The notes under the pieces were generated by a model. It was not told the origin of the DNA. It was given only the letters and a program-made list of their open reading frames with translations, and did no database searches. DNA of 64,000 nucleotides from a virus: IMG/VR virus record IMGVR_UViG_3300032829_000002, positions 56,083 to 120,082 of that record. One strand, written 5' to 3'. Positions within the stretch are counted from its first letter, which is position 1; each line of letters opens with the position of its first letter. Below are positions 3,499 to 60,114 of the stretch, one piece after another. A program made the translations under genes and the position numbers.

Positions 3499-4806
3499 AT
3501 GCACGACCTTCCGTTTCAGAGCCTCCTTCAACAATCGCACGCTCGTCCGATTTCGGGAGAAGAGCTCGAAGCTTTCGGCAAGAAAGCAGCCGATCTCTAC
3601 ACGCGCGGCGACGGTGACCTGACGCAAGCAGTGGTCGAGACCGTCAAGCACGCGGGGCTTTCTCCGGAGCAAGTTCGTCGCGTCGTCGAGTTCGCCAACA
3701 CGACCGCGTACTTGACCGAGTTCAAGAAAGAAGGCTCGCCCCATCGCGTCATCGAGTTCCAGGGCGGCCCGGCAGATCCGGCCGCGGTCCTTCAGGACCT
3801 GAACGATGGCGGAGGTGGGTCGACTTACGACCGTGGGATGCTCGACTACGCGTCACCTCCGGCGGAGACGAAGGTCGCGTCGGCCGCAGCCGAAGAGGCA
3901 TTCGCTTCGGCACTCTCTCGCCCCGAAGCGGCGATGGTGCAGCACAACCCGTTCGGGGAAGTGATCGAGCTGAAGGACAAGCTTGCGTCGCTCTACGAGC
4001 ACGAGACGTCGGTCCTCAGCGGTCTCGAGGGCATGTACATGGACCTCGCGGAGCAGCTCTACGGGCACGTCAAGCAGGCGGCCATGTCGGGCACGACGCT
4101 CGGGGAGGTGGTTCAGGCGTGGGCGCCGTTCGTCGCTGACCCCCTCTATGTCAAGACGGCATTCGAGATGATCGGACCGCGCCTCGTGCAGGAGGAGGTC
4201 TTCCGCACCCTCATCGACGTCGACGACTCGATCAGCAAGACCGCCAGCGAGCACCGGATGGTCAACGAGCAGCATCCGCTCGTCGTGACGATGACCGAGT
4301 TCTGCGAGACGCTCGACAAGCTCGCGGCGGTCCGCGAGACCCGAGAGCAGACCAAGCTCGCGTTGGACGAGACCGTGAGCTTCTTGCGCAAGGCGACGCC
4401 GGAGCGCGTTTCGGCCTTCTACGACAAGCTGGCGGAGATCGCTGGCGTGAAGGAGGCCGCACCGAAAATGCCGCGTCCTGGCCTGCTTCGAAGTGTGGTT
4501 GACACCTTCGAGGAGGGCGGAAAGCTCGTGGGAAAAGGCGGTAGGGCCGTGGGCGACCTGCTTTTCGGCCCCGGAAGCTCCGCGGCCGAGACCATGGGCA
4601 GAATCGCTGGCGGAGCGGTCACGCATATTCCGCACGCTATCGGTGGACTCGCTGCGGTCCGCGGCGCGCAGCACCTCTCTGCGCTCGGCGCTTCTCCTGT
4701 CGGCCAGACACTGAAGTCGTTCATTCCCGGCACGCCGGAGTATCAGCAAAAGAGCCAAGAGCTCGCGTACCAGTACAGCGGCTACCCCTTCCCCATGGGC
4801 TACTGA
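3499..4806 (+). CDS. Head-module virion protein with Lys-x-Ala repeats (unknown)
   Basis: This is a 435-residue, largely helical protein. Its C-terminal quarter (about residues 335-400) is glycine/alanine-rich and could insert in or lie on a membrane. Short Lys-x-Ala motifs recur (KKAAD, TKVAS, VKTAF, SKTAS, DKLAA, VKEAA), a pattern shared with neighbouring virion proteins but not with the capsid, sheath or tube. GGAG lies 7-8 bases before the ATG. It occupies the position of an internal head or portal-associated protein, but it does not look like a portal. Confidence 0.75.
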   Translation: MHDLPFQSLLQQSHARPISGEELEAFGKKAADLYTRGDGDLTQAVVETVKHAGLSPEQVRRVVEFANTTAYLTEFKKEGSPHRVIEFQGGPADPAAVLQDLNDGGGGSTYDRGMLDYASPPAETKVASAAAEEAFASALSRPEAAMVQHNPFGEVIELKDKLASLYEHETSVLSGLEGMYMDLAEQLYGHVKQAAMSGTTLGEVVQAWAPFVADPLYVKTAFEMIGPRLVQEEVFRTLIDVDDSISKTASEHRMVNEQHPLVVTMTEFCETLDKLAAVRETREQTKLALDETVSFLRKATPERVSAFYDKLAEIAGVKEAAPKMPRPGLLRSVVDTFEEGGKLVGKGGRAVGDLLFGPGSSAAETMGRIAGGAVTHIPHAIGGLAAVRGAQHLSALGASPVGQTLKSFIPGTPEYQQKSQELAYQYSGYPFPMGY

Positions 4807-4812
4807 GGCAAC

Positions 4813-5403
4813 ATGAACCCTCTCGAGAAGTACTTGGCGGAGAAGCACGGGACGAAGACGGCGGCGGGTCCGCTCGATGGTCTTCGTGGATTCGGGCAGC
4901 AGGTCGGTCGAGCGGCCGCAACCGGTGCGGGAACCGCCGTCGCCGGCGCCGCGATCGCAGGTGCTGGCGTCGCCGCTTCGAAGATTTGGGATGCAGTCAC
5001 CAAGGGTCGTGACTTCCGAGCGATGATGGGATCTTCATTCAACGCGGACCTGCACGAGTTCCTGGCGACGCGCCCGAAGGAGTTCAACGAGTCCTTCAGC
5101 TCTCTGCGCACGATCAATCCGGAGTTCACCAAGGACCCGATGATCGCGGGTACGTACATGCGCCGCATGATGATGTTGCGCCCGGACAGCGCTGGTGGCG
5201 CGCTCATCGAAGCGCTGTCGCACCGCAAGGCTCTTCCCGAGTCGGAGATCGGCGAAGCCTTTCTTCACAGCGCCGGCGGCGGCGTGATGGAGGGCACCAA
5301 GGCGCACATGCGGGAGCAGCAGCAAGCTACCCGTCGTCGCCCGGAAGGAGAGCACGGTCGTGGCGGAAGCGAGTACTTCCACGTGCCGTCCGGCCGCGAA
5401 TGA
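4813..5403 (+). CDS. Small head-module virion protein with Ala/Gly membrane-like segment
   Basis: The protein has 196 residues. The N-terminus carries the tag EKYLAEKHGTKTAAG, which resembles the starts of the proteins at 7136 and 24664. An Ala/Gly-rich hydrophobic stretch lies at about residues 34-57, followed by a soluble helical domain and a basic, glutamine-rich tail. GAGG precedes the ATG. The stop overlaps the next gene by 4 bases, so it is coupled to the protease gene. It may be an internal or scaffold-associated head protein; there is no firm family match. Confidence 0.72.
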   Translation: MNPLEKYLAEKHGTKTAAGPLDGLRGFGQQVGRAAATGAGTAVAGAAIAGAGVAASKIWDAVTKGRDFRAMMGSSFNADLHEFLATRPKEFNESFSSLRTINPEFTKDPMIAGTYMRRMMMLRPDSAGGALIEALSHRKALPESEIGEAFLHSAGGGVMEGTKAHMREQQQATRRRPEGEHGRGGSEYFHVPSGRE

Positions 5404-7139
5404 TCAAGACGAGCTTCTTCTCGAGTCATGCGGCGTACGGGCCAGCGGCGATCCCGCTGTTCACGCGTGCCGATGAGTACCTCGAGAAGGTCGCGTCTCC
5501 TGACTTGTTGCCGGAAGTCGTTCGTTACATCCACACGCTTCGTCCACGCAGCGACGCGCAGTACGTTCTGCTGAACGCGATGGGTGCTGGCGAGTTCTGG
5601 GGCTCGAACGTCAACGGCGACTACTTCCCCGAGGCTGCGCTCATCCACGCTCCGGATGACTGGAGCGGCAATCCGCTGCTTGATCGCGAGAAGGCCAAGA
5701 CGTGGGGCTACGGCTACCCGACGTTCTACTTGGCGCACCCGTACGCGCACCATCGGAACAAGGACGCGACGCGCGCCTTCGGAGAAGTCGAGCTCGCTCT
5801 CTGGAACAACCGGATGAAGCGCGTCGAATTGGTCACCCGCGTCGACAAGGACAAGTGCGACCAGTTCGGCGGTACGGGCGTCTGGGACAAACTCAAGGCC
5901 GGACACTTCCCGGACGTTTCGATGGGCTGCAAGGTTCCCTTCGATACGTGTTCGATCTGCCTCGACTGGGAGGCGTACCGAAAGGCGATGGCGACGTTCA
6001 AGAAGGATCGTCATCGTACGCCCGGAGAGGCAATCCTCGAGGTTCACAAGCAGCTCAAGGCGAAGAACGGCAAGGGCATCCGCGGCTTGTCGATCACGCG
6101 CGCCGACTACTGCGAGCACGCGCGCGGCTCGATGAACAAGATCTTGTCCGACGGACGAAAGGTCTTCGTCTACAACGACTACCCGAAGTTCTTCGACATC
6201 AGCTTCGTCTTCATCGGTGCCGACAAGACGGCGAAGGTGATGATGAAGATCGCCGACGGCGAGAGCAAATTGTGGTCGTTGCCCTCAGCGGAAATCGCAG
6301 AGAAGCTCGGGTACGTCGAAGAAGACGAACAAGAAGAAAAGACTGCGAGCGCTTCTGAAGAAGACGCGTTCAAGATGGCCTTCCTCGGGAAAGCCGCGAA
6401 GCTGAAGAAGAGCGAGATCGTGAAAGACACGGTCCCCTCGCAGTTCGCTGGCAAGGCTGTTCCGCTGCTCACTCGTCACGAGCCGGATCTACCCGAGGAG
6501 GTGCTCGATGCGCTTGCGTCGCGTCCGCTTGGTGAAGCGCTCTCTACGACCACTGGGCTCGGTATGGTTCTTCGACCGAAGGAGTTCCAGCGGATCATCC
6601 TCGTTCGCGGAGGTCAAAAAGACGTCGCGGACGATCTCGAGCAACGTGGAGTCGTCTTTCCAAAGAGCGAAGAAACGGACCCCGTTTCCCTTCGTTCCGA
6701 CCTCTTTCACTCCGCGCTCGCGAAGCTGCTTCTCCCGCTTCTTTCCGATCGATCTGCCTTCGGACCTGCCATCGAGAAGCGGGTTTTGGTCATCATTGGG
6801 AAGGGGTCGCCGGTAGCCCGAAAAACAGATTCTTCCCATTCGTCAGATCTGCTGCGTAAGATTGGGAGTGCGTACAACGGCTATCGCCAAGCGATTCTTC
6901 ATCTCGTTCCTGAAGTGCAGGACATGATCGATCGCTCCGGTCTTTCCGACGGTAGTCTCAAGAAACTTGCACAGGCCCACGTGAACGAGCTATTCACATC
7001 CTTGTCGGCTGCCTATCTCAAGAACGCGTTCTTGGACGAGGTCGGCCACTCCAAACAGGCGAACGCCGGCGTGGAGAGGGGACTCCCCTCGAGGAACACG
7101 TGGAACTCACCAACCCTCGATGAAGGAGTCCACTCATGA
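5400..7139 (+). CDS. Probable prohead (capsid maturation) protease
   Basis: This 579-residue protein probably cleaves scaffold and capsid proteins in the prohead. Its N-terminal domain has features of phage maturation serine proteases: an NGDYFP element at residues 72-77, a histidine cluster AHPYAHHRN at 112-120, and a serine in PDVSMGC (S174). H113, H117 or H118 together with S174 would be the candidate catalytic pair. A cysteine set (C177, C184, C187, then YCEH at 237-240) could form a zinc site. The C-terminal part contains KTASASEE and KAAKLKK, possible self-cleavage or tag motifs. It lies just before the candidate scaffold and capsid genes, as expected. The fold assignment is by motif only. 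Confidence 0.65.
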   Translation: MIKTSFFSSHAAYGPAAIPLFTRADEYLEKVASPDLLPEVVRYIHTLRPRSDAQYVLLNAMGAGEFWGSNVNGDYFPEAALIHAPDDWSGNPLLDREKAKTWGYGYPTFYLAHPYAHHRNKDATRAFGEVELALWNNRMKRVELVTRVDKDKCDQFGGTGVWDKLKAGHFPDVSMGCKVPFDTCSICLDWEAYRKAMATFKKDRHRTPGEAILEVHKQLKAKNGKGIRGLSITRADYCEHARGSMNKILSDGRKVFVYNDYPKFFDISFVFIGADKTAKVMMKIADGESKLWSLPSAEIAEKLGYVEEDEQEEKTASASEEDAFKMAFLGKAAKLKKSEIVKDTVPSQFAGKAVPLLTRHEPDLPEEVLDALASRPLGEALSTTTGLGMVLRPKEFQRIILVRGGQKDVADDLEQRGVVFPKSEETDPVSLRSDLFHSALAKLLLPLLSDRSAFGPAIEKRVLVIIGKGSPVARKTDSSHSSDLLRKIGSAYNGYRQAILHLVPEVQDMIDRSGLSDGSLKKLAQAHVNELFTSLSAAYLKNAFLDEVGHSKQANAGVERGLPSRNTWNSPTLDEGVHS

Positions 7140-7939
7140 GTGGGATGCACGAATACCTCGCGCACGCGTACGGCACGACCCAGCCTCAGCAGACCGCTGA
7201 CGCCGAGAAGGTCGCTCAAGCCGAGCTCTTCGCGAAGATGGCCGCCGAGAACGGCATCGACCTGAGCACGCTGAACGACAGCCAGATCACCGAGCTCTGG
7301 AACGCCACGTTCGCCAAGACGGCGGGCGAGGAAGAGAAGAAAGAGCACGGCCACGCGCACAAGGACAAGAAGGCTGCGCAGCACGGCCACAAGCACCACG
7401 GCGAGAAGAAGGCCGAGGCGCAGGCGATGAACGAGTGGCTCCAGACCAAGGAAGCGCAGGCGAAGTTCGCCGAGGCCGACTTCTTCGGTCGTCAGATGGC
7501 GCACGCCTACGTGGCGGAGCTCCGCAAGATCGCCTCCGAAGGCGGCTTCGACTTCCTGGGCTCGAAAGAGGCGGCGATGCCGCCGCAGCTCGCGGCCGCG
7601 CTCGGCAAGAAGGACGGCGGCGGCGAGAAGGAAGAGAAGAAGGACGAGGAGAAGAAGGAAGAGAAGAAGGAGGAGAAGAAAGCCTCCGTGAGCAAGAAGG
7701 CGTCGCCTTCGGCGCTCACCCAAGTCTCTGCCGCCTTCGCCATCGAGAAAGCGGCCTCGGCCGGTTTCGATCGCGACGAGGCGACCGCGCGCGTGTCGGC
7801 GGTCCTCACCCTCGGCTTCAACGAGGACAACAGCAAGGTGGCCGCCGCCACCGAGTTCCCGCAGGCCAAGGAGATCCGCGCTCTCGAGCTCCTCGAGGCG
7901 GCGGGTTACCCCGTGACCTGGGAGCAGCCCAAGGGCTGA
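7136..7939 (+). CDS. His/Lys/Glu-rich candidate scaffold or internal head protein
   Basis: This 267-residue protein sits between protease and capsid genes, the usual place for a scaffold. It starts with the tag MHEYLAHAYGT. Residues 71-88 hold seven histidines alternating with Gly/Ala/Lys, which would bind divalent metal. A near-pure Lys/Glu tract lies around residues 160-184 and is encoded by a polypurine run at about 7624-7682. Several Lys-x-Ala motifs (EKVAQ, AKTAG, EKKAS, EKAAS) are possible protease sites. The ATG overlaps the previous stop (ATGA). Confidence 0.7.
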   Translation: MSGMHEYLAHAYGTTQPQQTADAEKVAQAELFAKMAAENGIDLSTLNDSQITELWNATFAKTAGEEEKKEHGHAHKDKKAAQHGHKHHGEKKAEAQAMNEWLQTKEAQAKFAEADFFGRQMAHAYVAELRKIASEGGFDFLGSKEAAMPPQLAAALGKKDGGGEKEEKKDEEKKEEKKEEKKASVSKKASPSALTQVSAAFAIEKAASAGFDRDEATARVSAVLTLGFNEDNSKVAAATEFPQAKEIRALELLEAAGYPVTWEQPKG

Positions 7940-7952
7940 CAAGGAGAGACCG

Positions 7953-9218
7953 TTGTGGGATGGGAGTGCAGCCATGCGCAAGCAAGCCGAGGGGGAATCC
8001 TCGGGAGGCTCACTCCTGTCCGCAGCGGGATCTTCTCCGCTTCCGCAGCCGCAGATCGTCTCGCGACTTGCGCCGGGGAAGCGGGGGCCAACTGGAATGG
8101 CCCATCGGAACAACTTCACCCGAGTGAACTCGGGCTCGATGCCAGCACCTGATGCTGGCGCAGTCTCTCAGAAGTCGCTACCACCAAAGTACGGGTCAAT
8201 CATGAACGGAACAGGGATGGCATCGAAACCGTCGCTTCAGGACCTGGTCAAGGCAGCGCAGGCTGGCTCCATCTCCCGTGCGCGCATCAGCGAAGAGGCC
8301 CGTCGTCAGGCGGAGAACCTCTCGGGGGAGAAGACCGCGAGCGCACTGGAGCAAGAGATGTCGGTGCCGACGGAGTACGTCGACAAGCTCGCCGGCGCTC
8401 TCGAGTTCCTCGCGAGCGAGTTCCACAAGAGCGCGGCCAGCGCCGCGCCGCCGGCGCACATCACCGAGCACATCCAGGCTCCCGGCAAGGGACCCGGTGC
8501 GCTCGAGGTGTCGCACGCGACCGCATCGACGTCGCTTCCGGACCACAAGGGTCAGGCGCATCAGCAGCCGCCGCACAAGCCGGGCACCGAGAAGGTGCGC
8601 CCGTCGGATCAGGCTGCCAACGCGCTCGAGACGAACGAGCACCACTCGACGCCGGGGCACACCCCGCAGAAGGTGGCCTCGGCAGATCTGCTCGAGAGCA
8701 ACCTCGCGCGCCTCGGCCTGAAGAAGGTCGCCGCGGAGAAGTGCGAGAAGTGCGGCAAGGACAAGACCGCGTGCGAGTGCAAGCCCGAGAAGAAGGCGTC
8801 TGCTCTCCTCGAAGGCAACCTCGCGCGCCTCGGCATCAGCAAGAAGGCCGAGGACGCGATCAACCCGGCGCACATCTCGGCGGGTCCCGCCGTTCCGCCG
8901 GAGACCAGCGCTGCGGGTGAAGCGGGCGGCGCGCCCGCCGGCGGCAAGCCCGGTCCGAACACCGAGCTCGTCGGCTCGAACCAGGCGGCCATCAACTACA
9001 CCAAGGGGCAGGCCAAGTCTGGTCCGAAGAGCGACATGAAGAAGTGGCTCGACGAGCCGGCTCTGTCGTCGCAGACCGACAGCACGCTCCGCGCGGCGTT
9101 CGACAGCACCGCGCAGGCGGGCACCAAGTTCGGCAGTGCGAACGGCGGCGTGAAGGTCGCGGCTGCGCGCGCTCTCCTCGAGACCCTGCTCGACGAGCAG
9201 ACCAACCCGACGGCGTGA
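7953..9218 (+). CDS. Low-complexity head protein with internal repeats and a Cys knuckle
   Basis: This 421-residue, mostly disordered protein is rich in Ala, Pro, Gly and Lys. It contains two copies of a repeat at about residues 242-260 and 282-299, with core NLARLG followed by KKVA or SKKA. Between them lies a compact cysteine motif C264-x2-C267-x6-C274-x-C276 that could bind zinc or iron. The start is TTG at 7953, with AAGGAG 6 bases upstream; the first in-frame ATG (7974) has no ribosome site. It is probably a scaffold or internal head component; the function is not established. Confidence 0.68.
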   Translation: MWDGSAAMRKQAEGESSGGSLLSAAGSSPLPQPQIVSRLAPGKRGPTGMAHRNNFTRVNSGSMPAPDAGAVSQKSLPPKYGSIMNGTGMASKPSLQDLVKAAQAGSISRARISEEARRQAENLSGEKTASALEQEMSVPTEYVDKLAGALEFLASEFHKSAASAAPPAHITEHIQAPGKGPGALEVSHATASTSLPDHKGQAHQQPPHKPGTEKVRPSDQAANALETNEHHSTPGHTPQKVASADLLESNLARLGLKKVAAEKCEKCGKDKTACECKPEKKASALLEGNLARLGISKKAEDAINPAHISAGPAVPPETSAAGEAGGAPAGGKPGPNTELVGSNQAAINYTKGQAKSGPKSDMKKWLDEPALSSQTDSTLRAAFDSTAQAGTKFGSANGGVKVAAARALLETLLDEQTNPTA

Positions 9219-9228
9219 GGAAGGGACC

Positions 9229-9582
9229 ATGGAGAAGATCAGCCACGACAAGGTCGCAGAAGTCCTCAACGACGCTGCCACCGCGCTGCGTTCGGTCACG
9301 GCCGAGCGCGACGAGCTTCGCACGAAGGTCGCTCAGTACGAGCGCCGTGCGGAGGCGGAGAAAGTCGCTCACGAGATGCAGAGCAAGGGCATCAGCAACG
9401 AGCCCTTCGAGCAACTCGTGACGAACCTCGAGAAGATGGCCGAAAGCGGCAAGCTCGGGGAGATCAAGAACGCAGTGAACCTCGTCGGTCCCGACATGGG
9501 ACGGAAGCTCGCTTCGCTCACCAACGACAACCAGTCTCACGTGGGCGGCTCCGACTTGGAGTCGTTCCTCACGGGCGGCTGA
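9229..9582 (+). CDS. Short coiled-coil head-module protein
   Basis: The protein has 117 residues with a coiled-coil N-terminal half (about residues 5-60, heptad-like ELRTKVAQYERR) and an EKVA motif. The C-terminus is helical and ends in a Gly/Asp/Ser tail. AGGGACC precedes the ATG. Its place directly before the decoration and capsid genes fits a small scaffold-core or assembly protein. No family is recognised. Confidence 0.72.
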   Translation: MEKISHDKVAEVLNDAATALRSVTAERDELRTKVAQYERRAEAEKVAHEMQSKGISNEPFEQLVTNLEKMAESGKLGEIKNAVNLVGPDMGRKLASLTNDNQSHVGGSDLESFLTGG

Positions 9583-9617
9583 GTTCGGCTGAACATCGGT
9601 TCTAGGAGGAAATCATC

Positions 9618-10145
9618 ATGTCGACGGTCCAGAGGATCAATTTCGAGCTGGTGACGGACATCCTTCCGCTCCACCGGAGGGATTTCCCGCTCGCCGATCC
9701 GACGTTGGCCGACCCCACGAACGCCACCACGGGGACGGTCGACGGCGAGTGGATGACGCTCAACTCGAGCTACCAGCTCATTCGCGGCGCGAGCATCGCT
9801 GCGGCGGGCAACGGCGCCACTGTGCGCTGCTTCCCGCTGTGGGCGGAGCGCGGTCGTTACGACGTCCAGGCGATGGCAGGCCGCAAGATGCCGGTCATCT
9901 TCCTCGGCGCGTACGAGTTCGACACGCGCATCTACGACGCCTCGCTCGTCGTGGGCTCGGGTGCGGCGATCACCACGGTGCTCCAGCCCGTGAAGGTGTC
10001 GTCGATCCAGCTCGGTTCTCGCTTCTACTGCGGCCTCGTCGGCCACGGTGGCGCGGGAGATTCGGCGCCGATCGTCGGGTACGTCACCCGCCTTCCGGCG
10101 AGCAACGGCAACAAGCTCCGCTTCATCTCCGGGTACCGCTCGTAA
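9618..10145 (+). CDS. Candidate capsid decoration/stabilising protein
   Basis: This 175-residue, beta-rich, glycine-rich soluble protein has no membrane segment and no Lys-x-Ala motif. It is immediately upstream of the major capsid gene, the usual site of head-decoration genes, and has a strong AGGAGG ribosome site suited to a highly expressed virion protein. Short beta stretches (LGSRFYCGLVGH and IVGYVTRL) are consistent with a small beta-barrel. The assignment rests on position and composition. Confidence 0.65.
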   Translation: MSTVQRINFELVTDILPLHRRDFPLADPTLADPTNATTGTVDGEWMTLNSSYQLIRGASIAAAGNGATVRCFPLWAERGRYDVQAMAGRKMPVIFLGAYEFDTRIYDASLVVGSGAAITTVLQPVKVSSIQLGSRFYCGLVGHGGAGDSAPIVGYVTRLPASNGNKLRFISGYRS

Positions 10146-10187
10146 GCGGGACGCCAGAGCGGCAACAAGAAGGAGAAGGAGAAGACC

Positions 10188-11309
10188 ATGAGTGTCCCCG
10201 CACGAGTCCTCAACGACCTGTTCACCCAGAAGCTGGGCACGCAGGAAGGCAAGGAGAAGATCGCAGAGTACGGCGGTTCGTACGTCCGTGATCGTCTCCG
10301 CGAAGTGTCCTACGCGAGGAAAGTTCTTCCTCCCGAGCAGGTCACCCGCGCCGACTGCCAGCGCAGCGTCAACCACGACACCCTCGTCAAGATCGTGGAC
10401 GTCGAGCCGCAGAGCCGCGCGCTCTCGATCTCGTTCCGCGGTCAGCCCACCGCCCGCTTCATCCGCGGTGCGAAGGCCGAGGTCGCCTTCTTCACCATCT
10501 CCTCGGAGATGTTCCAGAAGACGGAGCAGGAGCTTCTCGCCTACGAGATGCCCATCACCAAGATCATCGAGGACAACTCGGTGAAGGACATCCAGGAGAT
10601 CGAGGACCGCGAGTTCACGATCAACATCGAGGCGGCCGTCCAAGCGCTCCAGCAGGAAGCGAACGGCGGCACGATCACCTCGCTGAACTGGTCGAACATC
10701 AACGCGGGCGCCGTCGTCGAGTTCTCCGTCCGCAAGGGCGAGCTCGCGCGCAACGCCGGCAAGAACGACGCGACCGTGCGCCCGATCCAGCGCCCGGACC
10801 TCGTCAACCTCTTCAAGTTGCTCGACGGCAACCGCCTCCGCTCGGAGCGCGTCCTGATGACGGAAGTCGACTGGGACGACCTCCTTCAGTGGACGGTCGA
10901 GGACTTCGGCGATCGCCTCCAGTCGGAGACGGCGGTCGACGGGTACAAGTACAACACGCTGCTCGGCCGCGCGTACATCCGCACGGTCAAGACGGACATC
11001 CTCCGCGCGGGCAACGTGTACTGCTTCACCCGCCCGGAGTTCTTCGGGAAGTTCTACGTCCTGAACAACTCGAAGTTCTACATCGACAAGATCGCCAACA
11101 TGATCACCTTCCAGGCGTGGGAGGACATCGGTATGGGGATCATCAACATCGCGGCGGTGCGCAAACTCGAGCTCTACTCGGCCGACGCGACGTCGAACAA
11201 CGCGGATGGGCTGCTCTCGAGCTTCATCCCGGTCGCCGAGGACGCGCTCGGTGCGGTCAACAACCGCGTCGACACGGGCCTCCAGTTCCCGCAGGTCAAC
11301 CAGTACTGA
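10188..11309 (+). CDS. Major capsid protein (probable HK97 fold)
   Basis: The 373-residue protein has the usual size and layout of an HK97-fold capsid: a helical N-terminal arm, a mixed alpha/beta centre, and a C-terminal region with NVYCFTRPEFFGKF and a conserved-looking MITFQAWEDIGMGI. It follows the protease and scaffold genes, has an AGGAGAAGGAGAAG ribosome site, and is followed at once by a strong terminator. These are all features of the main head protein. No protease tag motif is seen inside. Confidence 0.85.
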   Translation: MSVPARVLNDLFTQKLGTQEGKEKIAEYGGSYVRDRLREVSYARKVLPPEQVTRADCQRSVNHDTLVKIVDVEPQSRALSISFRGQPTARFIRGAKAEVAFFTISSEMFQKTEQELLAYEMPITKIIEDNSVKDIQEIEDREFTINIEAAVQALQQEANGGTITSLNWSNINAGAVVEFSVRKGELARNAGKNDATVRPIQRPDLVNLFKLLDGNRLRSERVLMTEVDWDDLLQWTVEDFGDRLQSETAVDGYKYNTLLGRAYIRTVKTDILRAGNVYCFTRPEFFGKFYVLNNSKFYIDKIANMITFQAWEDIGMGIINIAAVRKLELYSADATSNNADGLLSSFIPVAEDALGAVNNRVDTGLQFPQVNQY

Positions 11310-13040: not shown

Positions 13041-15575
13041 ATGTCGTTCGAACGCAACATCGTCGGAGACCTCCCGCTCGCAGCGGCGAGTGCCTTCTTT
13101 CTGAAGCTGAAGACGGCTGCTCAGGCTCCTCTCGATCCCCCGGACGAGACCGGCGGCCTCGAGGGGCAGTTCGAAGCGCCTGTCGAGCAGGTTCTTCCTC
13201 TGCTCGTGCAGATGGTCGAGAACGAGTTCAAGACCATGTACGCGTACAAGACGTACGCGCAGTCGCTCCGCGACTTGTCGCACTTCGCGATCGCAGAAGA
13301 GTTCGAAGATCACTCCGAGGACGAGATCGAGCACGCCGACTGGCTGCTTCGTCGTCTCGCTGTTCTCGGTGGTCCTTCGCAGCTCAACGACATCCCGGCG
13401 CCGCCGCCGGCGACCGATCCGTCGGCGATCATCAACACGATGATCCGCATGGAGCAGGAAGGCATCGCCAAGTGGCGCGTGCTGCACTCGATGCTCGGAG
13501 AGAACCCGGCGAAGTACAAGGTCGAGGAGTACCTCACCAAAGAGCAAGAGCACCTCGACGAGCTCTGGCAGATGCTTCCGAACACTCCGTCGATGTCGAT
13601 GCAACCGATGGCGGCGGCGCAACCTCCTGCGGCCCCGCAGCCGCAGCAGCGCACTCCAGCGACCAACAATCCGGACGCAAGCGGCACGATGCCGCCGGCG
13701 ATCGAGAAGAAGGAAGCCATGGCGAAGTTCGCCGAGCACGTGCGCGTGATGCGCAAGCGCGGCTCGGGCAACTTCGATCAGCACGGCGACGCGACCGCGA
13801 TGATGGAGGACTTCCTCAAGAACGCGAGCGCCAAGATGGCGGTTTCGCACACGTGGGTGAAGGATCGAGTTGCTCGTGCCATCAATCGCGGAGCCAAAGA
13901 AAGTCGTGTGCGCGACTTCCAGAACGCGATGGGACGTGTCGTGGCCAAGCATCGTGGCCCTACGGGACCCGTTGCGCAGAAGGCGGATGCAGCAAAGCGA
14001 ACTGCTGAAGAGGTGCTGGGGCTGAAGCGCGTTCGTGCTGCTACCGAGAAGAAAGCGGGCATCGGCGGCGGCTATGACTGGCGCCCGATGTCGGCGATTC
14101 CCGGAACGGCGGGAGACACAGGCCGTGTCGAGCAACCCGTTCAGCAGCTCCAGGTCCAGCTTCCGGCCATCGGCAGCTACACGGGCAAGGAGACGACCAA
14201 GGCGGACCTCAGCTCGCCCGCTCCTCGTCGTGGTGGCGGAGGCGGTGGTGGAGGCGGGGACGACATGGGGCTGGGCGGCCTCGACTTCGGAAAAGAGGGA
14301 TCGATTCCGCTCTGGAAGAAGCTCGCCAAGGCCGACGCCGTCTCGAGGGGCCACGAGCGCGCGGATGCGGGGCTCGCGGCGCGCGCGCGGCAGACGGAGG
14401 GAATGCGCGGTGAGCTCTACGGCGACGTGATCGGCCGCATTCTCGGCGCGACCGGTGGCTTCTACGCGGGCAAGCCGGGTGGTTCTTTGCCGTCGATCGC
14501 AGCGGCTGCACTCGGGCAGCACTTGGGCGGCAAGGCGGGCAAGACCGTCGGACGTGAGGTCGACACGCGCCGCACCAAGAAGAAGCTCGGCGGCATCAAG
14601 CAGGCGTTCGAGGACACGATGAATCTGCTCGGGCAAGAGCAGATGCTTCAGCAGCAGCAGGGCGCCAACGAAGCGGCCTTCTACATGGAGCGCTCGCGCG
14701 CGCTCGCCGAGCAGCAGAAGCAGATGGAGCAGGCGCTCCAGGCGGCGCAGCAGGAGAAGGAGCAGCAGGCGCAGCAGCTTGCGGAGCTCCAGAACGCGGT
14801 GCAGCAGCAGACGCAGATGTCGAACGATGCGACGACGCGCGCGTTGATGCAGACGGTGCAGGCGAACAACTCGGCGCTTCAGAGCCGTCAGCTCGCGAAC
14901 GACACGACGGCGGCGCTTCAGAAGTTGAAGCAGACGCTGCGGGAGATCGCTGGTGATGACAGCGGTTCGAACACCGGCGGTATGGGGTCTGGTGGTGAGC
15001 CGGCGACCAGCCTTCAGCAGCAGGGTCCGGCGGCGCAGGCACCGAGCGCGGGCAACACTCCGTCGGCAGCGCCCCCCGAAGGTGGAACGACGACTCCGGG
15101 TCCGACCGAAAGCCCAGACTCGGGCGCGAGTGGTCAACCGGGACGCACGGTCGGGCAGCAAGATCAGAACCGCCCGCAGACGGGTGACCAGTTCAAGAGC
15201 GCGAGCGTGAAGGACCTCGCCAAGGGCGCGCTTCACGGAGCGAAGCAGATGCTCACGTCTAAGGCTCCGTACGCGCTTGGTGGCGCGGCACTGATGGGAG
15301 GTCTTCAGGCGGCCAACATCCACGGCGGCTCGGAGAAGCTTCGTCAGGAGGTCGCGGCGGACGAGAAGACGCCTGCGGGATCGTTCGGTGAAGCGATGAT
15401 GCAGGCGCAGCGCAAAGCGCGGCTTGGTCTGGCGGAGGCTGGGGAGAAGTTCCCTGGTGCTTCTACGGCGATGGCAGCTCTCGGCGGTGCAAGCATGGGT
15501 GCGAGTCTCGGTCCCGCGCTGGTGGGCCGACTTCAGCGCGCGCCCGGTGACATCAAGACTCTGATGGGAGGTTGA
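13041..15575 (+). CDS. Large virion protein with N-terminal ferritin-like diiron domain
   Basis: The protein has 844 residues. Residues 50-180 form a four-helix pattern that matches bacterioferritin/ferritin-like proteins, with every metal ligand in register: E62 (with Y69) in helix A, E95 and H98 (EIEHAD) in helix B, E138 in helix C, and E168 with H171 (EQEHLDEL) in helix D. A Pro/Gln linker, a basic helical region, a nine-glycine run, a glycine-zipper segment (about 465-520), a long Gln-rich coiled coil (about 535-640), a Pro/Ser/Gly linker and two Ala/Gly hydrophobic segments near the C-terminus follow. The ATG at 13041 has GAGGAG upstream. It is probably an internal or ejected virion protein. 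The ferritin-like call is strong by motif; its activity is inference. Confidence 0.8.
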   Translation: MSFERNIVGDLPLAAASAFFLKLKTAAQAPLDPPDETGGLEGQFEAPVEQVLPLLVQMVENEFKTMYAYKTYAQSLRDLSHFAIAEEFEDHSEDEIEHADWLLRRLAVLGGPSQLNDIPAPPPATDPSAIINTMIRMEQEGIAKWRVLHSMLGENPAKYKVEEYLTKEQEHLDELWQMLPNTPSMSMQPMAAAQPPAAPQPQQRTPATNNPDASGTMPPAIEKKEAMAKFAEHVRVMRKRGSGNFDQHGDATAMMEDFLKNASAKMAVSHTWVKDRVARAINRGAKESRVRDFQNAMGRVVAKHRGPTGPVAQKADAAKRTAEEVLGLKRVRAATEKKAGIGGGYDWRPMSAIPGTAGDTGRVEQPVQQLQVQLPAIGSYTGKETTKADLSSPAPRRGGGGGGGGGDDMGLGGLDFGKEGSIPLWKKLAKADAVSRGHERADAGLAARARQTEGMRGELYGDVIGRILGATGGFYAGKPGGSLPSIAAAALGQHLGGKAGKTVGREVDTRRTKKKLGGIKQAFEDTMNLLGQEQMLQQQQGANEAAFYMERSRALAEQQKQMEQALQAAQQEKEQQAQQLAELQNAVQQQTQMSNDATTRALMQTVQANNSALQSRQLANDTTAALQKLKQTLREIAGDDSGSNTGGMGSGGEPATSLQQQGPAAQAPSAGNTPSAAPPEGGTTTPGPTESPDSGASGQPGRTVGQQDQNRPQTGDQFKSASVKDLAKGALHGAKQMLTSKAPYALGGAALMGGLQAANIHGGSEKLRQEVAADEKTPAGSFGEAMMQAQRKARLGLAEAGEKFPGASTAMAALGGASMGASLGPALVGRLQRAPGDIKTLMGG

Positions 15576-56115: not shown

Positions 56116-56517
56116 ATGGACTACGCCGCGGTCATGGAGAGAGCTTTTCTCGACGAACTCGAGAAGATCGCTGCTGCTCGAGAGCAGCTACGTCACGGCA
56201 AGTCGCGTGCGAAGCGGCGCCCGATGCGTGTGTCGACGATGCTCCGCAAGGAGAAGGACGGCACGCTCTACAAGTACACGAAGCAGGCGGATGGCTCGAT
56301 CGGCAACGTGGTGCCGTACTCGAACTCCGACTACCAGTCGGCGACGGGTGCATCTGGCCCGACGGGAACTCCTGCCGCAGCCAAGCCTGGTCCGAACGAC
56401 ATCGTTCCGTCTCGAGAAGACGGACGCGAGGCCATGTCCACCAAGATCCCTGCCTTCGCGCGCTACTCTCTGGCGCCGGCAGCAGTCAACACGCCCGAAG
56501 AACACGGCAACTTCTGA
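56116..56517 (+). CDS. Virion protein with N-terminal FLDELEKIA tag
   Basis: The 133-residue protein starts DYAAVMERAFLDELEKIAAA, one of four successive genes with an F/I-x-DEL-x-K/Q-I/L start. A basic region (KSRAKRRPMRVS) and a polar, probably disordered remainder follow. ATG 56116 has GGAG 5 bases upstream; the GTG at 56092 has none. The tag suggests targeting to the virion; function unknown. Confidence 0.7.
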   Translation: MDYAAVMERAFLDELEKIAAAREQLRHGKSRAKRRPMRVSTMLRKEKDGTLYKYTKQADGSIGNVVPYSNSDYQSATGASGPTGTPAAAKPGPNDIVPSREDGREAMSTKIPAFARYSLAPAAVNTPEEHGNF

Positions 56518-56525
56518 GGTCCATC

Positions 56526-57194
56526 ATGTCCATGCCCATCTCGATGTTCTCCTTCTTCGACGAGCTGAAGCAGATCCAAGCCGGCACCGGCATGGGCAAG
56601 ATTGCCAAGGAGCTCACCGAGGCATCGCGCGAGAAGATCAAGGCGAAGAACTTCGCTCTCACGCCAGCGCAGTCGGCGACGGGGGAGGCAGCCTACCCCA
56701 TCCATGATCGCCGTCATGCAGCCAACGCCCTCTCCCGTGTCGAGCAGCACGGCACGCCGAAGCAGAAGGCCGAGGTCTACAAGGACGTCGCCAAGAAGTA
56801 CCCCGACCTCGCCCGCAAGAGCGACGTGCCGGCTCTTCGCGCAAAGGCAGCTTCGGTTGCAGATAAGGCGAAGAGTGTGGGGCACAAGGCGCTCGAGCAC
56901 GGTGCGCACGCGGTGCATGGGTTCTTGCACAATCGCATGGAGCCGGCGCAGGACATCGCGCATGGCCTTCTTCTCGGCGACTCCAAGAGAGTCGCGCACG
57001 GAGCCGGCGGTGCCGCTTCCGGTGCGCTGTTGTTCGAGGCGGGTCGTCGGGCAGGCAAGAGCAAGGAGAAGGACGGCACGATGGGGATGGCCCCTGCGAG
57101 CGCGTCCGCTCTTCCTGGCATGGTCGGTGGCCCGCCGGGCGGAATGGGCATGAACATGACACCGCCGATGGCGATGCCGGGGAGGATGGGATGA
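56526..57194 (+). CDS. Virion protein with N-terminal FFDELKQI tag and a small helical domain
   Basis: The 222-residue protein starts with SMFSFFDELKQIQAGTG, then a conserved-looking helical module (AAYPIHDRRHAANALSRVEQ, then KAEVYKDVAKKYPDL) found in many phage and bacterial small proteins (DUF6582-like; tentative), a basic helix, and a Gly/Ala/Met-rich end. It is coupled to the next gene by a 4-base overlap. Role unknown. Confidence 0.7.
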   Translation: MSMPISMFSFFDELKQIQAGTGMGKIAKELTEASREKIKAKNFALTPAQSATGEAAYPIHDRRHAANALSRVEQHGTPKQKAEVYKDVAKKYPDLARKSDVPALRAKAASVADKAKSVGHKALEHGAHAVHGFLHNRMEPAQDIAHGLLLGDSKRVAHGAGGAASGALLFEAGRRAGKSKEKDGTMGMAPASASALPGMVGGPPGGMGMNMTPPMAMPGRMG

Positions 57195-57511
57195 ACGCCG
57201 TCGTCTACAAGTCATTCGTCGACGAGCTCATGAAGATCAAGCAGGCGGGAGAGGGCCTGAGCGCTGCCGGCGCGCTCGGCCGAGCTCTCGGTCCCGAAAG
57301 TGCCATCGGTCGTCACTTGGCCGAGCACGGCCACGCCTACGATCTCGGCGGCCTCGGCATCTTGGCCCTTCCGCCGATCGACACGTTGCAGCACCAGGCG
57401 CGCAAAGAGCACCCCGACAAGTGGGAGATGGCGCATGCGGGCTTGGAGCTCGGGGGACTTGGTACCCTTGCGGCGCCGGTCGCCGCGCAGCTTCTGGCCC
57501 ACAAGAAATGA
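57191..57511 (+). CDS. Virion protein with N-terminal FVDELMKI tag
   Basis: The 106-residue protein starts NAVVYKSFVDELMKIKQAGEG and then has Gly/Ala/Leu-rich segments (about residues 48-60 and 82-102) that could touch a membrane. It overlaps both neighbours by 4 bases. The shared tag links it to the three surrounding genes. Function unknown. Confidence 0.68.
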   Translation: MNAVVYKSFVDELMKIKQAGEGLSAAGALGRALGPESAIGRHLAEHGHAYDLGGLGILALPPIDTLQHQARKEHPDKWEMAHAGLELGGLGTLAAPVAAQLLAHKK

Positions 57512-58308
57512 ACCTTCGCGCCACCATCGACGAGCTCGAGAAGCTCGGGGCGATCACCCCGGAGCAGGCGCGCGCGTCCTACGAGCGTGTGCAGCAGCTC
57601 GAGGCAAGCAAGCCCACGATCGGTCAGGCGCTTCGGTATGGAGCGCTTGGTGCGATCGCAGGCCCCGCAGCGAGTGCGATCGGCGACGTCGTGCGTGGGC
57701 AGCTTCCGTTCAAGCCTGTCGAGGTTGGTGGCAAGCCGGTTCGATTCGGGCGCTTGCGATCAGGACTTGGGTCCGCCGCCGCCGGCGCCGTGATGGGCGG
57801 CGTGGCTCCTCTTCTTCGGTACCACATGGACCGTGCGGCGGAGATGGCGACGCTGCGCCAGTTCATGCAGGAGTACGAGCAAGGGCAGGGCAAGACTGCG
57901 GCTCGATTGAAGCTCGAAGGCGACGCTCTCATCGAGGTCGACAAGGACGGCAAGAGCCTGGGCAAAGGCCCTGTTCCGATGAAGGAGAAGGGGAGCGACG
58001 CGTACGTCTCGTATGCTCCTGGAGACTTCGTCACGTCGCAGTTCAGCGGCCCGCTCAGCTACGGACCCTGGATTCTGGCAAGCGGGCTCGCCGGCGACGA
58101 CTCGACTCTCGAGGCACCCGTCGTGCGCAAGAAGCAAGCGGCGTCTCTCATGCCCACGACGCCAGCTTCTCCGAAGACTGGCCTCACGGCTGCTCGCAAG
58201 GTAGGACAGCCCAAGCTGACTGCTCCCGGCGGGCCAAGCATCGCCGACATCGCTAAGCCCCAAGGCTACGGTCTCCCCGCGTCAGGGGCGAAGAAGGGAA
58301 TCATCTAG
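57508..58308 (+). CDS. Virion protein with N-terminal IDELEKL tag
   Basis: The 266-residue protein starts NLRATIDELEKLGAITPEQA, then Gly/Ala-rich hydrophobic stretches (about residues 38-60 and 85-110), a helical region and a Pro/Lys tail. ATG 57508 overlaps the previous stop. The tag and the membrane-like segments recall ejected or internal virion proteins; no family is known. Confidence 0.68.
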   Translation: MNLRATIDELEKLGAITPEQARASYERVQQLEASKPTIGQALRYGALGAIAGPAASAIGDVVRGQLPFKPVEVGGKPVRFGRLRSGLGSAAAGAVMGGVAPLLRYHMDRAAEMATLRQFMQEYEQGQGKTAARLKLEGDALIEVDKDGKSLGKGPVPMKEKGSDAYVSYAPGDFVTSQFSGPLSYGPWILASGLAGDDSTLEAPVVRKKQAASLMPTTPASPKTGLTAARKVGQPKLTAPGGPSIADIAKPQGYGLPASGAKKGII

Positions 58309-58310
58309 CC

Positions 58311-59321
58311 ATGCCCGAGTGGATTCACGAGCGCGCTGAGCATCTGCTCGCCAAGAACCCCGACATGAAGAAGTCGACGGCGTTCGCGGTTGCGACGCAG
58401 CAGTCGCATGCGCTCGGCAAGACCCCGAAGGGGTATGGTACTGCAAAGGGCAAGCAGACGGCGAAGGCCAAGTACGACACGCCGAAGGACGACGTGAAGG
58501 CCGCCAACCCTGGCGGTCTGAAGACGCCCAAGCTGAAGGAGTCTGGGTGGCTTGGAGACGCGGCGGAGAGCGTGAAGCGCGTTCTGACGACGCCCATTCC
58601 CGGCACGCCGGAGATCTTTCCTCGAGCTGCGGTGGAGACCGCCACGAGGGCAGGCAACGTGATGAAGAAAGCGCCCCTTGGGCGGCCGATGGGAGGCAGT
58701 TTCGTGACCAAGAGAGCAAGCGAACGCATGAAGGCCGCCTACGAGAAGATCGCAGGCACTCCTCCGCCGCTCCCGGCGGCTGCTCGAGCAGCAGCCAAAG
58801 CTACTCCGACGATCGCCAAGGCCCTTCCGAAGCCGAAGCTGTACGGCGAGGAAGGCTTTCAGGCGCTCATGGAAGGCGCGCGCGCCGCCAAGAGCAACCC
58901 GTTCGCAGCGATGAAGCTCAGCATGAAGCTCGCTGCCGAGAAGGCGGACATCGAGACCAAGGGTTCGCTCGAGCAGAACGTCGAGACCCCGCAGAAGGGG
59001 ACCGAGCACAGCCAGCAGGGCGCCGGCGAGCAGAAGGGTGTTCCGACCGAGGGGTACCACTGGGGACAGGACCCCTTCAACGGCAAGCCGGGGATCGGCA
59101 ATCGCAAGGACGCGTACGAGGTCTTCACCGACGGCGCCGAGCAGATCAACGTCGCGGACAACCACGACCTGCTGCATCGCATATTCACGAACATGGGGCC
59201 TGCATCCGACGCAGCGAAGGCTACGATCGAGCAGAACTTCTCGGGCGGTCGCCGCGGGCACTACGTGACGCACGCACAGACCTTGCTCGAGAAGGTTCGC
59301 AGCGTCGCTGGCCGCGCGTAG
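58311..59321 (+). CDS. Virion protein with ATQQSHALGKTP-type N-terminus
   Basis: The 336-residue protein starts PEWIHERAEHLLAKNP, then STAFAVATQQSHALGKTPKG, a pattern that I recall as common in uncultivated phage proteins of unknown function. A basic Lys-rich region, EKIAG and other Lys-x-Ala motifs, and a helical C-terminal domain (KDAYEVFTDGAEQI; YVTHAQTLLEKVRS) follow. It is probably a virion component and sits directly before the sigma factor gene. Confidence 0.68.
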   Translation: MPEWIHERAEHLLAKNPDMKKSTAFAVATQQSHALGKTPKGYGTAKGKQTAKAKYDTPKDDVKAANPGGLKTPKLKESGWLGDAAESVKRVLTTPIPGTPEIFPRAAVETATRAGNVMKKAPLGRPMGGSFVTKRASERMKAAYEKIAGTPPPLPAAARAAAKATPTIAKALPKPKLYGEEGFQALMEGARAAKSNPFAAMKLSMKLAAEKADIETKGSLEQNVETPQKGTEHSQQGAGEQKGVPTEGYHWGQDPFNGKPGIGNRKDAYEVFTDGAEQINVADNHDLLHRIFTNMGPASDAAKATIEQNFSGGRRGHYVTHAQTLLEKVRSVAGRA

Positions 59322-59367: not shown

Positions 59368-60114
59368 GTGTCCAACCCGATTGACGAGCTGCTCGAAGAG
59401 AAGAAGAAGACGGCAGCAGTTCGCGCAGCTCGAGATCTTGATCTCTGGAGCAAGTGGAATGAGAGCGGGCGCAAGCCTGAGCATCTCGAGCCCTTGCTCG
59501 ACGCATACCAGCCGCTGATCAACAGCAAGGTCCGCGAGTGGACTCCTCCGCTCATCACGCCGAGTGCGATGGAGGCGGAGATCACCGGCCACGTCATCCA
59601 AGCCTTCCAGACGTACAACCCGCAGAGAGGCGCTGCGCTCAACACGCACGTGCAGCACCGCATTCAGAAGGCGAAGCGGTACATGGTCAAGTACCAGAAC
59701 CGCGCGTACATCCCCGAGAGTCCGGCGTACCAGATCGGCAACTTGCAGCGAGCGCACGGTGCGTTGACGGACGACCTTGGGCGAGCACCGACCGCACAGG
59801 AAATCGCCGAGTACGTAGGCATCCCCGTGCGCAAAGTAGTACAGATTCAGAAGTCGATTCGCAAAGACATCCCGAGCTCTGCACTCGAGAGTGACCCGAT
59901 GCCTCGTTTCGGATCGAGAGAGCAAGAAGTTCTGTCCCTTCTTCCGAGCGTGCTCACGCCCGAAGAAAAGCAGGTCTTCGACCTCGTGTACCACCCCGAC
60001 ACGAGTAAGCGGGTGGTTTCGACTTCGGCCATCGCCAAGAAGATCGGTAAGAACGCCTCTCAGGTGAGCCGGCTCAAGTCGAGCATCATAGAGAAGACCA
60101 AGCAGTACCTCTGA
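59368..60114 (+). CDS. Sigma-70-family RNA polymerase sigma factor
   Basis: The 248-residue protein redirects host RNA polymerase to phage promoters. Region 2 lies at about residues 40-110 (HVIQAFQTYNPQRGAALNTH), region 3 at about 125-170, and region 4 with a recognition HTH at about 197-248 (STSAIAKKIGKNASQVSRLK). Region 1 is absent, as in small alternative sigmas. GTG 59368 has AAGGAGG 5 bases upstream. The ATAAGAG element above it suggests autoregulation. A strong terminator follows. Confidence 0.88.
   Translation: MSNPIDELLEEKKKTAAVRAARDLDLWSKWNESGRKPEHLEPLLDAYQPLINSKVREWTPPLITPSAMEAEITGHVIQAFQTYNPQRGAALNTHVQHRIQKAKRYMVKYQNRAYIPESPAYQIGNLQRAHGALTDDLGRAPTAQEIAEYVGIPVRKVVQIQKSIRKDIPSSALESDPMPRFGSREQEVLSLLPSVLTPEEKQVFDLVYHPDTSKRVVSTSAIAKKIGKNASQVSRLKSSIIEKTKQYL

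Follow-up and report, generated by a model that had tools for sequence, protein, structure and literature searches.

An N-terminal tag common to otherwise unrelated proteins of a large phage lineage is probably a capsid-targeting leader

In the 64 kb window (the whole stretch of DNA analyzed here, spanning bases 56083-120082 within a viral record of 120 kb), four consecutive genes encode proteins whose N-termini carry the same short tag, F-x-D-E-L-x-K-I or a near variant of it. Our analysis confirmed that the tag is a real shared N-terminal sequence, larger in extent than first described: one short N-terminal sequence is common to several otherwise unrelated cargo proteins. The tag is probably a capsid-targeting leader, made up of a docking helix and a head-protease site and removed at a K-phi-A tripeptide, with packaging and cleavage being what we infer from the evidence below.

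A second IMG/VR record (184,953 bp) represents the same phage at 99.99% identity, and the two records overlap to form a closed circle of ~184.8 kb, revealing that a complete circular phage contains the window. Genes were called with our own codon-usage script and placed in families by our own reciprocal-best-hit grouping, and ten related phages of 149-209 kb were retrieved in full for comparison. Terminase, portal, and protease genes are common to the window phage and these ten relatives, as is, nearly always, the capsid gene. Outside the window, at 174147-181792 of the circle, four tandem genes for proteins of 577-662 aa with similar N-termini (...WKLTRAMxxAGWR) look like duplicated structural, perhaps fibre-type, genes. 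Within the structural module of the window, gene 66 (13041-15575, 844 aa) has an N-terminal stretch, FKTMYAYKTYAQSLRDLSHFAIAEEFEDHSEDEIEHADWLLRRL, that to the eye looks like a ferritin/rubrerythrin-type helical bundle.

The preliminary description reported four consecutive tagged genes, and all four are present, with motifs starting at residues 11, 10, 9, and 6. These genes, their tags, and the two genes that follow are:

56116..56517, + strand: tagged gene 124, 133 aa, basic body
56146..56172, + strand: tag FLDELEKIA of gene 124, residues 11-19
56526..57194, + strand: tagged gene 125, 222 aa; residues 29-78 match phrog_16160 (unknown function, 6e-7)
56553..56579, + strand: tag FFDELKQIQ of gene 125, residues 10-18
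57191..57511, + strand: tagged gene 126, 106 aa; its three homologues from other phages (41-43% identity) all carry the tag as well
57215..57241, + strand: tag FVDELMKIK of gene 126, residues 9-17
57508..58308, + strand: tagged gene 127, 266 aa, with glycine/alanine-rich segments
57523..57549, + strand: tag TIDELEKLG of gene 127, residues 6-14, a variant with T for F
58311..59321, + strand: gene 128, without a clear tag
59368..60114, + strand: gene 129, sigma-70-like factor with N-terminal extension MSNPIDELLEEKKKTAAV; homologue of Arash virion protein gp10

The four tags take a form like (S/A)-F-x-D-E-L-x-K-I. In the gene 128 family, six of eight members from other phages carry a tag after an N-terminal domain, and one member of the gene 129 sigma-factor family (G019) scores as tagged. 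Scanned in all six frames, the 64 kb window matches [FILVMYWTP]xDELxx[ILVM] only at genes 124-127 on the + strand, with three more matches on the - strand, none of them in the frame of a called gene. The proposed search of the full genome for other tagged proteins recovered a fifth gene (MTRMNESMMQSFADELKKLARV, G000:C1:36649-37626), which lies before the window, immediately 5′ of the portal gene, and encodes SFADELKKLA with its F at residue 12. When residues 1-30 of each called gene were shuffled, a mean of 0.21 motif genes resulted (maximum 3 in 2000 shuffles), compared to six observed in the window phage: genes 124-127, gene 38, and a weaker MSVEDELLML. Also before the window, gene 1 (G000:C1:1549-2049) has the tag-like sequence WLGFLDEFGKIQ C-terminally, at residue 154 of 166, and its homologue in phage G011, gene 124 there, has the tag at its N-terminus. 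Single-sequence searches of IMG/VR for close homologues of genes 125 and 127 returned the same phage only.

A DNA pattern for F-x-D-E-(L/F)-x-K-I-A had 118 matches in IMG/VR, compared to five for a scrambled control with rearranged codons, and many of these matches sit together on large contigs. With a looser pattern, up to nine matches per record occurred in 41 records, compared to one in all 41 for the backward control. Bacterial genomes also have the pattern, but only 2% of bacterial matches are necessarily N-terminal, meaning that a stop lies within 30 codons upstream, compared to 42% of viral matches. A position-specific score identified 119 tag windows, 94 of which place the F in the first 20 residues (expected 8.5%), and the number of N-terminally tagged genes per phage ranged from 5 to 17 (6-17 in the ten relatives, about 90 together). 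The tag sequence is apparently new to the literature. Short tblastn searches of cultured phages, which have low power for 20 residues, gave no match, and a text search of papers for the peptide returned nothing relevant; every tagged phage identified here is uncultured.

Across these proteins the consensus is (A/G/S)-F-x-D-E-L-(E/Q)-K-I-(A/G), and F usually falls at residue 6-13; a small number of tags sit inside the protein or at its C-terminus. The hydrophobic moment of the tag is raised (0.38 compared to 0.26 for random 14-mers), and an AlphaFold model of the gene 126 family, which draws residues 3-19 as a helix, is of low confidence (pLDDT 54) and is given no weight here. Codons of the tag vary synonymously while its residues hold. 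The flank before F is specific to each phage, with N-x-FE(F/Y)G, MIDFSA, and (Q/E)IK(E/Q)AA found in three different phages, and flank likeness is 0.317 among unrelated proteins of one phage compared to 0.148 between phages (reached in 0 of 500 label shuffles). Such a phage-specific flank would be expected of a peptide that is read by one phage-encoded partner, although exchange of gene starts by recombination inside one phage might also contribute.

The bodies behind the tag have little in common. The four window proteins were first described as otherwise dissimilar, and an alignment of 99 tagged proteins that includes them bears this out, in that only AFxDELxKIA is conserved and the bodies are unrelated. 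Cargo bodies are basic, at +0.083 charge per residue compared to -0.011 for untagged neighbours (p 1.6e-30), and four of the five tagged proteins of the window phage follow this trend, gene 126 being the one that is not basic. The cargo is rich in glycine zippers, and its recognizable domains comprise permuted papain-like amidase C92 (three proteins), SNF2 helicase, sigma-70, HNH nuclease, NlpC/P60, 3D, and MazG. Homologues keep the tag, in four of four phages for the gene 126 family and three of three for the C92 family. Sigma factors of the clade (window 59368-60114 and homologues) have variable N-terminal extensions, many of which end in K-phi-A-A or K-E-A, and the Arash homologue is without such an extension; these extensions are possibly a degenerate form of the tag.

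Having described the tag, we turn to the genes in which its end recurs. The tag ends in K-I-A, and tripeptides of this type are also enriched in proteins of the head operon at 3499-11309 of the window, which encodes a protease and the capsid protein:

3499..4806, + strand: head-operon gene 55, rich in K-phi-A
5400..7139, + strand: gene 57, head maturation protease (gp21-like) by the profile match of its family
7136..7939, + strand: head-operon gene 58, core/scaffold candidate, rich in K-phi-A, with a weak internal tag-like YVAELRKIA at residue 125
8217..9218, + strand: head-operon gene 59, core/scaffold candidate, rich in K-phi-A
9229..9582, + strand: head-operon gene 60, core/scaffold candidate, rich in K-phi-A
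10188..11309, + strand: gene 62, major capsid protein, K-I-A at residues 24-26

K-(I/T/V/L/M)-A occurred 372 times compared to 68 expected (5.5-fold) in eight head-operon-type families (genes 36, 50, 55-60), a group assigned to the head by position only, except for the protease, capsid, and portal. In other core families the enrichment was 1.1-fold, and 27 control tripeptides ranged from 0.6 to 1.9. The residue before K is E four times more often than expected in these head-operon-type tripeptides, as it is in the tag. The eight families were grouped after a first per-protein look, so per-family scores give a fairer view of the enrichment: the seven highest (z 8 to 18) all fall within the group, in which gene 56 scores 2.5, and tail, replication, and RNA polymerase families score about 0. 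Ungrouped tripeptide counts over whole proteomes were dominated by repeats in long proteins of several phages. As a positive control, the T4 core proteins gp22, gp67, and gp68 contain (I/L)-x-E 24 times compared to 10.4 expected (2.3-fold), and the known T4 gp21 site was recovered. In nine of ten phages a conserved N-terminal site of the capsid protein reads K-(I/V)-A, and the K-I-A of the window's capsid protein could possibly mark the end of a propeptide.

The candidate protease for these sites is the product of gene 57. Eight of 11 members of its family match the head maturation protease phrog_18299 (best E 5e-8), the window's own protein falling below threshold, and in a structure comparison of the gene 57 model T4 gp21 ranked first (Z 6.2 over 131 residues, a modest score, values below 8 not being decisive), with herpesvirus proteases lower in the list (Z 3.5 and 3.2). 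Foldseek gave no PDB match to the model below E 0.001, and the family profile had no match among PDB sequences. H118 and S174 are invariant in the 11 sequences of the family, suggesting that they are the catalytic histidine and serine.

Virion data come from Salmonella phage Arash (OQ632216), a distant relative that has been cultured and that encodes homologues of the portal, terminase, capsid protein, protease, sigma factor, and RNA polymerase; mass spectrometry identified 116 proteins in its virions (PMC10585845). Homologues of two tagged proteins are among them: the helicase corresponds to gp217 (36% identity over 491 residues; 1148 virion spectra) and the sigma factor to gp10 (467 virion spectra). 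The F-x-DEL-x-K tag is absent from the Arash genome, as it is from Vibrio phage D69. The Arash data thus show that cargo of this type belongs in virions, but a role of the tag in loading does not follow from them. Absence of the tag from relatives had been named as grounds for rejecting the idea; it is seen in these distant phages only, and nearer relatives keep the tag. The Arash capsid protein has K-E-A at the site that matches K-(I/V)-A, and in Arash head genes the strongest enrichment is that of K-E-A and K-Q-A, so the capsid site and the core motif appear to shift together. Before the window, locus L005 (G000:C1:44721-51107) encodes a 2128-aa protein with 32% identity over 1555 residues to Arash gp206, an RNA polymerase beta-type protein that is more abundant than any other in Arash virions; phages of the clade probably encode a multisubunit RNA polymerase of their own and may carry it in the virion.

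The position of the tagged genes bears on where the tag might lead. Adjacent pairs of tagged genes numbered 34 compared to 4.5 expected, and in eight of 11 phages, as in the window, a tagged group lies between a homologue of the tail-type genes 122/123 and a sigma-factor gene, the commonest neighbour of tagged genes; gene 123 itself had no match among cultured phages. Other tagged genes are found next to genes 58-59 within the head operon and adjoining portal and gene 36/37 homologues, and 30 of 97 N-terminally tagged genes are away from any core virion gene. The tag might instead direct proteins to the lumen or hub of the tail or baseplate, from which they would be ejected or act on the cell envelope, and the tail-type neighbours agree with this, as do the NlpC/P60, 3D, and C92 domains of some cargo, which could act on cell walls or membranes. 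However, the head-operon and portal-side tagged genes do not fit a tail destination, and the tag-end motif is enriched in head-operon proteins and not in tail families 69-72, 120, 122, and 123. We know of no processing of tail cargo of this kind, and we consider a tail destination unlikely.

Equally doubtful, in our estimate, is that the tag mediates binding to some other phage protein, such as a virion RNA polymerase or a host-takeover complex, with K-phi-A serving as a docking motif rather than a cut site and packaging being incidental or absent. Internal and C-terminal tags would suit a docking motif, and both the frequency of sigma-factor neighbours and the rank of the RNA polymerase homologue in Arash virions are in keeping with such a partner. 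Yet the RNA polymerase family lacks K-phi-A enrichment (own_47, z -1.5), whereas core, protease, and capsid families have it, and a protease site accounts better for the N-terminal capsid motif and for the T4 positive control. Least probable is descent without common function, in which N-termini were copied by tandem duplication or recombination: clustered genes and the resemblance among tags of one phage would be expected of duplicates, but the leaders alone are alike while bodies are unrelated, homologues in divergent phages keep the tag, and residues hold while codons vary; chance likeness is excluded by the shuffle, scrambled-pattern, backward-pattern, and bacterial-genome controls.

Among the closest known signals is the T4 capsid targeting sequence of IPI, IPII, IPIII, and Alt, a short N-terminal leader cut by gp21, in which hydrophobic targeting residues precede a protease motif (PMC9026906, PMC7411985). 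The tag has a comparable layout, with hydrophobic F and L ahead of K-I-A, the putative protease site. In the T4 IPIII leader, residues 4 and 7 matter for targeting and residues 8 and 10 for processing, and T4 leader fusions bring foreign proteins into heads (PMC9026906). As in T4, the cargo is unrelated and mostly basic, the end motif is enriched in core proteins, and a gp21-like protease is encoded in the head operon. Unlike in T4, the sequence is the unrelated F-x-DEL-x-K-I-A; the T4-type (I/L)-x-E is absent from the leader end, where K-phi-A stands instead; up to 17 genes per phage are tagged; and tags are sometimes internal or C-terminal. Of the two, only the T4 signal has proven packaging.

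The packaging signal of P1 DarB is also N-terminal and lies on virion cargo, and the first 30 residues of DarB suffice to load a reporter (PMC9024508). The P1 Dar proteins yielded no consensus (PMC9024508), whereas here one consensus is common to many proteins. Homology to DarB was considered and rejected: one tagged protein matches a DarB-like PHROG, but a protease-family member matches largely the same PHROGs, so that this looks like one shared, probably pyrophosphatase-like, domain, and the match is not counted as evidence. In SPN3US/phiKZ-type phages, one prohead protease (gp245, A-x-E) processes both ejection proteins and the capsid protein, and a targeting role has been proposed for the propeptides (PMC7411985); the named ones are 111-130 residues long and end at A-x-E, in contrast to the leader of ~15-20 residues with a shared motif found here. 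Arash differs in lacking the F-x-DEL-x-K tag and in the K-E-A and K-Q-A enrichment of its head genes. The best reading is that the leader works like the T4 and P1 signals, although by sequence it is not the T4 signal.

In the mechanism that we favour, a short amphipathic N-terminal helix, formed by phage-specific upstream residues and then F-x-D-E-L, would dock unrelated cargo onto the prohead core. E/Q-K-I-A directly after the helix would be the head-maturation-protease site, and cleavage after K-phi-A would remove the leader there, leaving the mostly small, basic cargo in the head, from which it would probably be ejected into the host with the DNA. Several observations count against a leader: Arash and Vibrio phage D69 lack the tag, and in Arash virions the counterparts of tagged cargo are present untagged; 30 of the 97 N-terminally tagged genes lie away from core virion genes; gene 126 is not basic; and many tag clusters, including that of the window, adjoin tail genes. 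Of what was first proposed, a shared targeting peptide is well supported by its presence at the N-termini of many unrelated proteins, its retention in divergent phages, and its phage-specific form. A prohead destination gains indirect support from the K-phi-A end, the gp21-like protease, the basic cargo, and the Arash virion homologues; the tail destination offered beside it is less likely, even though the window cluster does follow tail genes.

More broadly, the chances seem to us evenly balanced that a large, mostly uncultured phage lineage marks its cargo in general with one modular label, a code that arose independently of the T4 signal. Such a label, usually N-terminal, sometimes internal or C-terminal, and bearing a phage-specific flank, would load ~5-17 proteins per phage, including a helicase, a sigma factor, peptidases, a nuclease, and glycine-zipper proteins, into the head for delivery to the host. 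If true, this would provide a sequence rule for telling which unknown phage proteins are carried in the virion and are the first to reach the host, a rule for which P1 has offered no shared consensus and T4 few known cargo proteins. In large environmental phages, many genes whose function is unknown would become a testable set of delivered proteins, and the tag may serve as a new label with which to load proteins into phage heads. The enrichment of K-phi-A, in turn, proposes a cleavage specificity for an uncharacterised branch of head proteases.
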